From the NCBI GenBank assembly GCA_958435885.1, contig CAUBHZ010000068.1:1-7780 (forward strand): a DNA stretch of 7,780 nt. Direction: 5' to 3'. The position numbers and the translations under genes were made by a program. Source of the DNA: an uncultured Intestinimonas sp. (GTDB lineage Bacteria; Bacillota_A; Clostridia; Oscillospirales; Oscillospiraceae). Under the pieces are notes generated by a model. That model made no database searches. It was not told where the DNA came from and was given only the letters and a program-made list of their open reading frames with translations. Shown here in pieces: positions 709 to 5,656 of this stretch (positions within the stretch are counted from its first letter, which is position 1; each line of letters opens with the position of its first letter).

Positions 709-1587
709 TCATACCGGGAAAAAGCTTTTGACCGTGATGAGTTTGCCCCGCTCAGCCCGGCACAGGGCCAGAAAGGTCTGGTCGCCGCCGTAGACCCGGT
801 ACTCCCCTTCCGGCAGGGCGGGCATCACCAGGGTCATGCCGTTGCGGAGCTTTTTCTCCTCCTCCGGCTTCAGGATCAGAATGGGGCGTCCGGCAAAGTA
901 GGCGTCCACCGGCAGCAGCAGGCTGTCCGCCTCTCCACGGTCGGCGGCGGCCTGGACGGCCTCCAGAGTCACCGCGTCGGCCAGGGTGAACCCGGCGGCC
1001 ATGGTCCGGCGCAGGGCACCCATACAGCCGCCGCAGCCCAAAGCCTCACCGATGTCGTGGCACAGGGTGCGGACGTAGGTCCCCTTGGAGCAGCGGACCC
1101 GCAGGCGGTAGTCCGCCGGACCGGTGGAGTCCAGCAGCTCCAGCTCGTAGATGCACACCGGGCGGGGCGCACGCTCCACCTCCTTGCCCTTTCGGGCCAG
1201 CTCGTAGAGCTTTTTTCCGCCGATTTTGATTGCGGAGTACATGGGCGGGATCTGCGTGATGTCCCCACGGAACCGGTCCAGCACCGCCAGTACCTGGTCC
1301 CGGTCTACCGTCACCGGCCGTTCTTCCACCACCTCACCGGTGGTATCCTGGGTATTTGTGATAACGCCCAGTTTAAGCTCCGCGATGTATTCCTTTTCGG
1401 ATTCAGAAGCGAACTCCACCGCCCGGGTGGCCCGGCCGATGAACACGGGCAGCACACCGGTGGCCATGGGGTCCAGGGTACCGGCGTGGCCCACACGCTT
1501 CTCGTGAAAGATGCCCCGCACCTTGGCGCACACATCCATACTGGTCCAGTCGGCGGGCTTATCGATGACCAAAATACCGTTAGGCAT
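709..1587 (-). CDS. truB: tRNA pseudouridine-55 synthase TruB
   Basis: Converts U55 in the T-loop of tRNAs to pseudouridine. The protein is 292 residues, normal for the family. It begins MPNGILVIDKP, shows the catalytic block GHAGTLDP (33-40, nucleophile Asp39), KEY (65-67), QIPPMYSA (112-119) and RCSKGTYVRTL (165-175); residues from about 235 form a short PUA-like tail. The ATG at 1587 is preferred over an in-frame TTG at 1635 because a GGGGAGG ribosome-binding site sits 7 bases upstream and because the known TruB N-terminus starts here. The start lies behind a 148-base hairpin-rich block and a second copy of its own first 21 codons, and it overlaps the stop of that leader frame by 8 bases (ATGCCTAA). 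It is followed 28 bases later by ribF. The coding sequence itself is intact. Confidence 0.96.
   Translation of the reverse strand: MPNGILVIDKPADWTSMDVCAKVRGIFHEKRVGHAGTLDPMATGVLPVFIGRATRAVEFASESEKEYIAELKLGVITNTQDTTGEVVEERPVTVDRDQVLAVLDRFRGDITQIPPMYSAIKIGGKKLYELARKGKEVERAPRPVCIYELELLDSTGPADYRLRVRCSKGTYVRTLCHDIGEALGCGGCMGALRRTMAAGFTLADAVTLEAVQAAADRGEADSLLLPVDAYFAGRPILILKPEEEKKLRNGMTLVMPALPEGEYRVYGGDQTFLALCRAERGKLITVKSFFPV
1525..1587 (-). repeat. Direct repeat, downstream copy (start of intact truB)
   Basis: This is the partner of 1736-1798 and forms codons 1-21 of the working truB gene. The two copies are 211 bases apart in register, which is 1 modulo 3. The frame opened by the upstream copy therefore meets the downstream ATG in the same relative frame in which nrnA meets the upstream ATG. 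Confidence 0.9.
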
Positions 1588-1735
1588 GACATAACCTCCC
1601 CGTGCGCCAAGGTCCGGCGCATTTGCGCCGTTCAAGCGTTTTGCCCTTGGGCAAAACCTTGCCGCAGGCGGAATTCACTTCCGCCGAGGATGTCAAATCA
1701 GTTCCGGGATCCCCATGGGCGCTCCGTGCCCATGG
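1588..1735. repeat. 148-base hairpin-rich block between the two truB starts (possible palindromic mobile repeat)
   Basis: Four perfect inverted repeats follow one another, given in plus-strand order. CGGCGCA/TGCGCCG lies at 1615-1621/1624-1630. GTTTTGCCC/GGGCAAAAC lies at 1638-1646/1649-1657, extendable by CAAG/CTTG around a one-base bulge. GGCGGAA/TTCCGCC lies at 1667-1673/1679-1685. CCCCATGGGC/GCCCATGGGG lies at 1711-1720/1728-1737, reaching two bases into the upstream repeat copy. This density of short palindromes is typical of REP/MITE-like intergenic repeats or of structured leader RNA. No transposase and no clear terminal inverted repeat bounding the whole block is visible. None of the stems is followed by a T-run, so they do not look like ordinary terminators. 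Identity as a dispersed element is inference. Confidence 0.6.
1595..1601 (-). promoter_or_regulatory. truB ribosome-binding site
   Basis: GGGGAGG on the minus strand lies 7 bases before the ATG at 1587. It decides the truB start against the longer in-frame reading that begins in the hairpin block. It sits in the non-duplicated sequence, so this site came with the block or with the downstream copy and was not copied from the nrnA-truB junction. Confidence 0.8.
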
Positions 1736-1798
1736 GGCGCACACGTCCATACTGGTCCAATCGGATGGTTTATCGATGACAAGAATTCCGTTAGGCAT
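1736..1798 (-). repeat. Direct repeat, upstream copy (truB codons 1-21)
   Basis: These 63 bases match 1525-1587 at 55 positions. The eight differences fall in codons 4, 6 (two), 10, 11, 12, 13 and 18; only codon 12 changes the amino acid (Ser versus Ala). Similarity starts exactly at the ATG, since the bases before the two ATGs differ, and ends after codon 21. Confidence 0.9.
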
Positions 1799-2741
1799 CG
1801 GCCTGCACCTTCCGGATGGCGGCCAGGATGGCCGCCTTGGCCTCTTCCACGGTGCCGGACACCGTACAGCCGGCGGCGGCGGCGTGGCCGCCGCCCCCCA
1901 GCAGGGCACAGACCTTGGTGGCGTTGAGGGTCTCGTCGGTGCGGACGGACAGCTTGCAGGACCCGCCCTTCAGCTCCCGGATGGTCACCGAGGTATGGAC
2001 CCCCTCCAGCTGACCCACGAAGGCGGCGATGTCCTCGGCGTCCGCCTCGTCGGCCTCCAGCCGGGCCATGTCGGCCAGGCCGATGGCGGCGATGGCAATG
2101 GCGCCGTCGTCGTGGAGGTCCATGGTGTCCACGATGAGGGACTCCAGCCGCAGCCGCTTCAGGCTCTTGGTGCGGAAGTGACGCTTGTTGGCCTTCTGGG
2201 CGTCAATGCCGGTGGCCATCAGGTCGGCGGCCACCCGGTGGGTGGCCGGAGTGGTGTTGCTGTACTGGAAGCAGCCGGTGTCGGTGGACACCGCCACATA
2301 GAGGGGCAGGGCCGCCGCCGGGGACACCGGACCCCACTGGCATATGAGGTCGTAGATGAGCTCGCCGCAGGCCGCCCGCCCGGCGTCCAGGCAGGTCTCC
2401 TTGGCAAAGTACTCCTGGGAGGGGTGGTGGTCGATGGCCAGGTCGATGCCCTGCCGGAGCCAGACCTCACCGGCCGGGGTGAAGAGGCTCTTGCCGGCGA
2501 TGTCCACCGACACCACAAAGGCGGGCTGGAAGCCCTCCGGAGCCAGATAGCCCTCCAGGTAGGGGGTGAACAGGCGGGTGGCGTCCTCGTTGGGGAGGAC
2601 CCAGGCCGTCTTGCCCTGCTCCCGCAGGGCCTGGCACAGACCCACGGCGCAGCCGATGGTGTCCCCGTCGGGCCGCTTGTGGGTCAGGATAAGAATGTCA
2701 TTTTGCCGCAGCAGCAGCGTTGCCGCCTCTCTGTAGTCCAT
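1791..2741 (-). CDS. nrnA: DHH/DHHA1 bifunctional oligoribonuclease / 3',5'-pAp phosphatase
   Basis: Degrades short RNA oligomers from the final stage of RNA decay and dephosphorylates pAp to AMP; a cytoplasmic, Mn-dependent family. The 316 residues match the family length. The DHH domain shows motif I THKRPDGDTIG (20-30, with DGD where many members have DAD), the motif II Asp in SVDIA (Asp80), DHH at 104-106 and the motif IV Asp in STDTG (Asp154). The C-terminal DHHA1 substrate domain carries GGGGH (282-286). The ATG at 2741 has GAGGTG about 10 bases upstream, overlapping the rbfA stop; the gap to rbfA is 12 bases. The 3' end overlaps the truncated truB start by 8 bases (ATGCCTAA), suggesting translational coupling. 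nrnA between rbfA and truB is a common clostridial arrangement. Confidence 0.94.
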   Translation of the reverse strand: MDYREAATLLLRQNDILILTHKRPDGDTIGCAVGLCQALREQGKTAWVLPNEDATRLFTPYLEGYLAPEGFQPAFVVSVDIAGKSLFTPAGEVWLRQGIDLAIDHHPSQEYFAKETCLDAGRAACGELIYDLICQWGPVSPAAALPLYVAVSTDTGCFQYSNTTPATHRVAADLMATGIDAQKANKRHFRTKSLKRLRLESLIVDTMDLHDDGAIAIAAIGLADMARLEADEADAEDIAAFVGQLEGVHTSVTIRELKGGSCKLSVRTDETLNATKVCALLGGGGHAAAAGCTVSGTVEEAKAAILAAIRKVQADA

Positions 2742-3092: not shown

Positions 3093-3112
3093 ATTTTTCT
3101 CCTATCAAGCAT

Positions 3113-3159
3113 ACAGACCCGTCCCCTCCTCAAATGACTTGGGGATGGAACGGGTCTGT
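3113..3159. terminator. 10-bp stem-loop in the infB-rbfA spacer, terminator-like only on the plus strand
   Basis: ACAGACCCGT (3113-3122) pairs with ACGGGTCTGT (3150-3159), with an inner CCCC/GGGG (3123-3126/3141-3144). On the plus strand the stem is followed by a T-rich run (TTTGGTTGTGTTTCTTTTC), resembling a Rho-independent terminator. On the operon strand the stem is followed by TATGCTTGATAGG, with no U-run, and is preceded by an A-rich stretch. It could stop antisense transcription entering infB, or be an RNA processing or stabilising hairpin in the operon mRNA. Confidence 0.5.
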
Positions 3160-3185
3160 TTGGTTGTGTTTCTTTTCAGGTGAGA

Positions 3186-5597: not shown

Positions 5598-5656
5598 GGA
5601 TCACTTCAATACGAAAACCCGGAGCGGAGATCCGGACTTGCGTATTGAAGCGATCC
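5598..5656 (-). promoter_or_regulatory. infB leader hairpin (16-bp stem with inner stem)
   Basis: On the minus-strand RNA, GGATCGCTTCAATACG (5656-5641) pairs with CGTATTGAAGTGATCC (5613-5598) over 16 positions with one G-U wobble. Inside it CCGGA and TCCGG (5635-5631/5623-5619) form a further 5-bp stem around a 7-base loop. The wobble is allowed only on the operon strand; the plus-strand RNA would have an A-C mismatch there. That favours a role in the infB mRNA leader. No U-run follows, so it is not a simple terminator. It ends 11 bases before the GGAGGG site. Possible roles are an RNase III cleavage site, an mRNA stabiliser or a protein-binding site. The remaining leader (5657-5706) holds only a small GCCGC/GCGGC hairpin. 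Confidence 0.6.

Follow-up and report, generated by a model that had tools for sequence, protein, structure and literature searches.

A dispersed, structured element flanked by duplicated gene ends and an inverted target copy in gut Oscillospiraceae

The DNA discussed here, referred to throughout as the window, is a stretch of 7,780 nucleotides from an uncultured Intestinimonas sp. (contig CAUBHZ010000068.1 of GenBank assembly GCA_958435885.1), and its minus strand carries what we take to be an operon of the nusA-infB-rbfA-nrnA-truB-ribF type, in which nusA, infB, rbfA and ribF were named from open reading frame translations and Pfam confirms truB and the DHH-type nrnA. An nrnA-like DHH/DHHA1 phosphoesterase gene (1791..2741, minus strand; Pfam DHH and DHHA1) lies upstream of an intact truB of 292 amino acids (709..1587, minus strand; Pfam TruB_N, E=1.7e-56) and, as an earlier reading made from the letters alone (the sequence-only reading) had reported, codons 1-21 of truB occur twice, at 1525-1587 and 1736-1798, the copies agreeing without gaps at 55 of 63 bases (87%) with a start-to-start spacing of 211 and with seven silent bases and one missense base between them. 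The similarity starts at the ATG, as the alignment of the locus bears out, and the 148-base block between the copies is indeed hairpin-rich, containing four hairpins and a ribosome-binding-like GGGGAGG.

Followed along the minus strand, the locus runs from nrnA into copy A (1736..1798), the remnant of the original truB 5' end, which is joined to nrnA by ATGCCTAA as in relatives with an empty site. Adjoining this remnant is the left hairpin of the element (CCCCATGGGC..GCCCATGGGG; 1711..1737, minus strand), whose stem differs in sequence among 42 aligned copies yet remains paired, followed by hairpin 1 (GGCGGAAGTGAATTCCGCC; 1667..1685, minus strand; alignment and pair table), by hairpin 2 (CAAGGTTTTGCC..GGCAAAACGCTTG; 1633..1661, minus strand), the best-conserved part in alignment A1 and the pair table, and by hairpin 3 (GGCGCAAATGCGCC; 1616..1629, minus strand), which overlaps the imperfect outer part of an inverted copy of truB (1602..1622, minus strand; complement of 1511-1531, 90% over 21 bases, inverted repeat I8). 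A spacer (1588..1601, minus strand), with the GGGGAGG motif read from the sequence at 1595-1601, leads from the element to copy B (1525..1587, minus strand; direct repeat D11), which is the end of the intact gene and has the same anatomy as at the other insertions described below; by that anatomy the cut point, P, would lie between 1524 and 1525. The remnant also opens a frame of 72 codons through the element (1580-1798, minus strand) that stops at a TAA overlapping the intact truB start, in the register that nrnA has at the remnant; a Pfam search of this frame gave no match, and since the frame closes early in locus L012 (read from sequence), the open frame is not a conserved feature. Two more long inverted repeats (3106-3166 and 5598-5656; arms of 28 and 26 bases, 82-85%) flank the infB-like gene, one in each adjoining spacer.

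Among 80 truB loci fetched from species-representative genomes, six have the doubled truB start with the block (L002, L006, L012, L020, L021 and L025), two of them in isolate assemblies, Flavonifractor An10 (L012) and F. plautii ATCC 29863 (L025), and a GGAGG-type motif is present in the truB spacers of all six. L006 has three truB starts and two elements, and L025 has an extra element fragment upstream. The truB elements L020:2561-2770 and L025:2561-2764 also have an extra hairpin-rich insert of about 60 bases inside hairpin 1, like a nested second small element. Empty sites, which the sequence-only reading had looked to for the original junction, do exist: 73 of the 80 loci were taken as empty, none having an element match at truB and 71 having exactly one truB-start motif (L057 and L073 had none by that motif), the empty loci read by eye being L003, L004, L005 and L079 only. 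The first three of these have a single truB start, and in L003 and L005 ATGCCTAA stands directly at it with no block. L079 leaves the usual truB reading about 17 codons past the start (2501-2660) and the truB match resumes later, possibly reflecting another insertion or a frameshift. The contig of L001 starts inside truB copy B, and this locus was left out of the filled or empty judgement.

The window block is one copy of a dispersed, structured element of about 140 bases, and this dispersal, the position at many gene ends with fixed polarity and the inverted copy of the target are what the sequence-only reading missed. The element was matched, among the best candidates scored, in 29 of 40 related genomes searched (10 of 10 and, at a stricter cut-off, 19 of 30). 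With the L021 block as a DNA query, matches were found in all ten genomes, 1 to 36 in each among the matches listed (the best 40 candidates per genome being scored in two genomes); a covariance model built from 42 copies places it at 3 to 62 sites per genome in the same ten at E<=1e-4 among the matches listed (best 150 candidates scored), with at least 285 matches over the ten, and at one or more sites in 19 of 30 further genomes at E<=1e-12, the remaining 11 having no match at that cut-off among the best 115 candidates scored. The order of hairpins is left hairpin, hairpin 1, the highly conserved hairpin 2 and the variable hairpin 3, so that the ends of the aligned copies are two unlike hairpins. 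The bases of the left hairpin vary widely and mostly stay paired, with up to five pair types per position, and the pair table of the 42 aligned copies records compensated pairs in the element stems, together with 37 G-U pairs versus 20 A-C pairs. Rfam gave no match in the window at the gathering score; a weak full-length hit to sbcD RNA (E=0.022, below threshold) was dropped because it was absent from 14 loci with other copies, and the exact 36-base core had no match in viral contigs, a single exact pattern being a weak test.

Elements at the same locus resemble one another across genera more than they resemble other elements (0.765 versus 0.677 at truB, 0.894 versus 0.717 at UvrA and 0.898 versus 0.715 at SsnA), which suggests that many sites are old or were passed on whole, and independent insertion at the same site in each species is not favoured, with the reservation that the element tree, built from short element sequences, has no clean locus clades (the smallest clade with the eight truB elements holds 34 of 58 tips, that with the three UvrA elements 21 tips and that with the three SsnA elements 9 tips). 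Several copies are unusual in other ways. L090, L108 and L142 are divergent, with hairpin 2 swapped for a different sequence pair and the gene ends still duplicated; in genome G002, elements occur in threes at regular spacings of 198 and 210 bases (C9:96008-96528 and C1:190662-191207), a pattern that would fit tandem repetition of element and gene end together; and by eye seven copies (L086, L088, L092, L095, L096, L097 and L105) are near tRNA-like or terminator-like hairpin sequences, some copies of this kind having similar terminator hairpins on both sides and mostly no called long direct repeat.

The wider anatomy was read from 123 loci (L085-L210 plus the window; L081-L084 were not selected, and L091, L104, L109 and L131 were left out as repeats of other loci or truB itself), in which direct repeats flank 90 of 147 element copies and 57 have no called repeat, repeats being called at spacings of 100-260 bases only and shorter ones than those seen going uncalled. 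A coding gene end is marked by 70 of the 90 repeats, and the arrangement is that of truB, with an outer gene-end remnant (A), the element and a second gene end (B) continuous with the intact gene. With coding side and frame judged by a GC-position score, the intact gene is on the right of the element in 67 of the 90, on the left in none and on both sides in three, and 20 were not assigned, in a tally that counts orthologous loci separately and whose entries are not independent. Two of the 70 coding cases drop out as duplicate sites; of the remaining 68, 51 lie at the 3' end of a gene and 17 at the 5' end, with repeats of 24-111 bases and a mean identity of 0.945. P sits inside the gene end; in the 51 cases at a 3' end it is 25-110 bases away from the stop codon, and the outer edge of the repeat is within 3 bases of the stop codon in 26 of these, extends 5-43 bases beyond the start of the stop codon in 11 and stops 4-22 bases short in 14. 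In L122 and L002, whose repeats are identical (52/52 and 63/63), the match ends precisely where the gene does, which means that the spacer does not simply reproduce the native flank. Repeats flank 26 of 33 elements in a later set, the 30 loci from the covariance-model search of the 30 further genomes, with the gene on the right in 22, on the left in one and unassigned in three; the single mirror case, L236, lacks a called gene on its right, and its inverted copy closely resembles that of L223. The sequence-only reading had offered, as one option, an element with an unusually long target duplication, and this part of it holds, because the same family and the same type of duplication recur at dozens of other sites. 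Seventeen gene pieces were searched for target names and one gave no hit; the others include RNase HI, UvrB, LepA, a YycF-like regulator, AspS, pyruvate:ferredoxin oxidoreductase, SsnA, an amino-acid racemase and UvrA, as well as the EF-G C-terminus, an ABC transporter ATPase, an HD-associated domain protein, an argininosuccinate lyase C-terminal domain, DUF711, a metalloenzyme-superfamily protein and YchF.

The stretch between the right part of the element and the intact gene is often the reverse complement of the gene across P. Over the 68 sites the best inverted match has a median score of 12 versus 6 in cross-locus controls, and 39 sites are above the 99th percentile of those controls (score 10) and 29 are not, whereas no control passed, either among 272 positions moved 60-180 bases further into the gene or among 68 matches in direct orientation; the later set has 15 sites out of 26 that pass at the same score. 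The inverted copy spans P in 38 of the 39 clear cases, in which the matches are 12-26 bases long, and extends 2-9 bases beyond it in 32. At truB this tail follows its own genome, being CTTGGCGCA where codon 22 is AAG (six genomes) and TTTGGCGCA where it is AAA (L025), and it matches codon 22 in all seven rows whose target reaches the truB body and the next base in five of the seven. The tail of L164 tracks a change from AAA to AAG relative to L123 and L148, with another mismatch present, and the inverted copy of L144 has drifted from its own target.

The two gene ends differ in a manner that speaks to their history. Thirty-three coding repeats hold 83 silent and 12 missense differing bases where the expected silent fraction is 0.225 (binomial p=5e-41, a value that assumes independence of changes and of loci, which holds only in part); L139, which supplies three of the 12 missense bases, is probably in the wrong frame in this count, and the locus listed as L107 is truB of L020. 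In a neutral remnant most changes would be missense, so A was recently a functional allele, and since A has no start codon in the 3' cases, A is unlikely to be under selection itself. The silent excess also leads to rejection of a plain old neutral duplication, which the sequence-only reading had already doubted. At truB the remnant differs from its own intact copy at 0-3 bases in L002, L012, L020 and L021, at 6 in L025 and at 8 in the window; L006 has two remnants, which differ from its intact copy at 9 and 10 bases. The window remnant is equally distant from its own intact copy (8/63) and from the gene of another species, L003 (8/63). Exchange by homologous recombination with empty or filled alleles would be the simplest cause of these silent differences.

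I would give an even chance to an account in which a dispersed element inserts through staggered nicks, a self-primed 3' overhang and a jump onto the element, and in this account insertion with duplication of the gene end is far better supported than the chemistry. The target would be nicked at P on one strand and at Q, near or just outside the gene boundary, on the other, leaving 3' overhangs of tens of bases; the gene-side overhang would fold back and prime on itself, and copying would reach the junction of single and double strand at P and run a few bases more, producing the inverted copy, before the polymerase jumped onto the element (as RNA or single-stranded DNA) and the other 3' end completed the join. 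Fill-in would then duplicate the gene end, so that insertions rebuilding an intact gene survive. The reach of the inverted copy beyond P fits copying that halts soon after meeting duplex, and fold-back with a template jump would give both the duplication and the P-spanning inverted copy in one step; a plain staggered-cut model does not account for the fixed polarity, because it would also lead one to expect the mirror arrangement. The old look of many insertions, which show an outcome and no fresh event, also weighs against the account, as do the copies with no called repeat (57 of 147), the repeats with no clear inverted copy (29 of 68), the loss of similarity at the gene edge in L122 and L002, and the drift of the inverted copy in L144. 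Later recombination of filled with empty alleles, and of A with B, could refresh A with coding alleles, build tandem arrays and remove elements precisely, and at truB the insert gives the intact gene a ribosome-binding-like motif of its own where it would otherwise overlap nrnA directly. A search for a mobilising enzyme, covering two families in ten element-bearing genomes, pointed to none: reverse transcriptase (PF00078) is present in three and absent from seven, and Y1 transposase (PF01797) is present in two and absent from eight, an absence that is not firm because several of the ten are metagenome-assembled genomes. Neither is supported by these counts as a shared partner, and the extant copies may be old. 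It is conceivable, if doubtful, that the element belongs to a new class, a structured RNA or single-stranded DNA of about 140 bases that on insertion makes an inverted target copy across the cut, duplicates the gene end so that the gene is rebuilt intact, and may then use that copy as a guide for homing into the same site in other strains.

Several other explanations draw on the same observations. Were the element a guide RNA directing an enzyme, supplied in trans, to cut cognate alleles at P, repair would copy element and gene end from a filled donor, leaving A as the end of the recipient and B as that of the donor. Such guide-directed homing suits a structured 5' part followed by a target-complementary 3' tail that spans the cut and tracks the target at orthologous sites, it would yield the fixed polarity and the allele-like differences between A and B, and the surplus of G-U over A-C pairs weakly favours an RNA from this strand. 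However, the junction of B with the gene retains the full target, so the cutter would go on cutting filled alleles; the tail also varies in length across the clear cases, and the families searched offer no candidate for the enzyme, and on balance I consider homing rather unlikely. The other option of the sequence-only reading, in which recombination brought in a diverged truB allele together with its leader and the native start stayed on as a remnant, has some support in the predominance of silent differences and in the equal distance of the window remnant from its own copy and from L003, and divergence through allelic exchange is the portion of that proposal that survives. As the sole cause it is quite improbable, for it gives no account of the same element at dozens of unrelated genes, of the fixed polarity or of the inverted target copies, and genome searches tie the block to a dispersed family.

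A similarly small probability attaches to the idea that the arrangement is kept for a function, with the inverted copy pairing with the P region in the mRNA and the resulting stem enclosing the start or stop codon and tuning translation or mRNA stability. The tracking of the target across species, the likeness of elements by locus and the ribosome-binding-like motif in the truB spacers would agree with such a role, yet the genes that carry the element are varied (51 sites at a 3' end and 17 at a 5' end), some copies lie near tRNA-like sequences, the truB copy is missing from most relatives, and the match could also be kept by template-switch correction of imperfect inverted repeats, a known process (PMC7202029). 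That the whole pattern is an artefact of assembly or binning has a negligible probability: several of the relatives are metagenome-assembled genomes and one contig begins inside copy B, but the isolates L012 and L025 have the same anatomy at truB, and in the complete genome AP018533 (L216) flanking repeats (77/80) surround the element elsewhere, and assembly error is rejected on these grounds. Of all these accounts, the one with staggered nicks, fold-back priming and a template jump is preferred.

The element is common in the gut Oscillospiraceae sampled and enters conserved genes at their ends (among them RNase HI, UvrA, UvrB, LepA, EF-G, AspS and truB) while leaving them intact, and its signature, a polar duplication of the gene end with an inverted target copy, was matched to no described bacterial element; either a new insertion chemistry or guide-directed insertion would be implied, and concrete, testable predictions follow. 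A literature search, whose scope mostly left out subscription papers and preprints, found no such element described. Miniature inverted-repeat transposable elements (MITEs) and other small dispersed bacterial repeats are short, non-coding, hairpin-rich sequences present in many copies near genes, MITEs having terminal inverted repeats that match a parent transposon and a fixed target duplication of about 2-10 bases, and the element resembles them in being short, non-coding, hairpin-rich, multi-copy and close to genes. It differs in having a duplication of tens of bases (24-111, n=68) instead of a short fixed one, a tail copied from the target, a fixed polarity and, at its two ends, hairpins that are unlike each other. 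REPIN/RAYT systems are hairpin-forming dispersed repeats thought to be mobilised in trans, and they are the subject of PMC3116915 and PMC8266576. The present element shares the hairpin-forming, dispersed character, but it has a larger structure of several hairpins and a duplicated gene end, and the Y1 (RAYT) transposase was found in two of ten element-bearing genomes, several of these being metagenome-assembled. LINE-type target-primed retroelements and SINEs have long, variable target duplications, a sharp 5' end, a variable 3' end and template jumping; a long, variable target duplication, a sharp 5' end and a variable 3' end are found here too, and a template jump is part of the proposed mechanism, whereas the inverted target copy at the 3' end sets the element apart; a reverse transcriptase was found in three of ten genomes, and the extant copies may be old. 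The TnpB guide RNA of IS200/IS605 elements is a structured RNA with a target-matching 3' tail beside the right end of the element, and a 3' tail complementary to the target is seen in 39 of the 68 sites, but it matches the insertion site of its own element in inverted sense, and the gene end is duplicated. Integrative elements of the kind exemplified by SXT in prfC bring a replacement gene end with them, displacing the host end as a remnant and putting a diverged copy in its stead, much as the gene ends described here are left as remnants and replaced by silently different copies; unlike them, the insert is about 140 bases long with no integrase gene, has at least 285 model matches over ten genomes and carries a tail specific to each site. 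The insertion signature appears to be new, and 'small dispersed bacterial repeat', as a broad label for the element, is already known.
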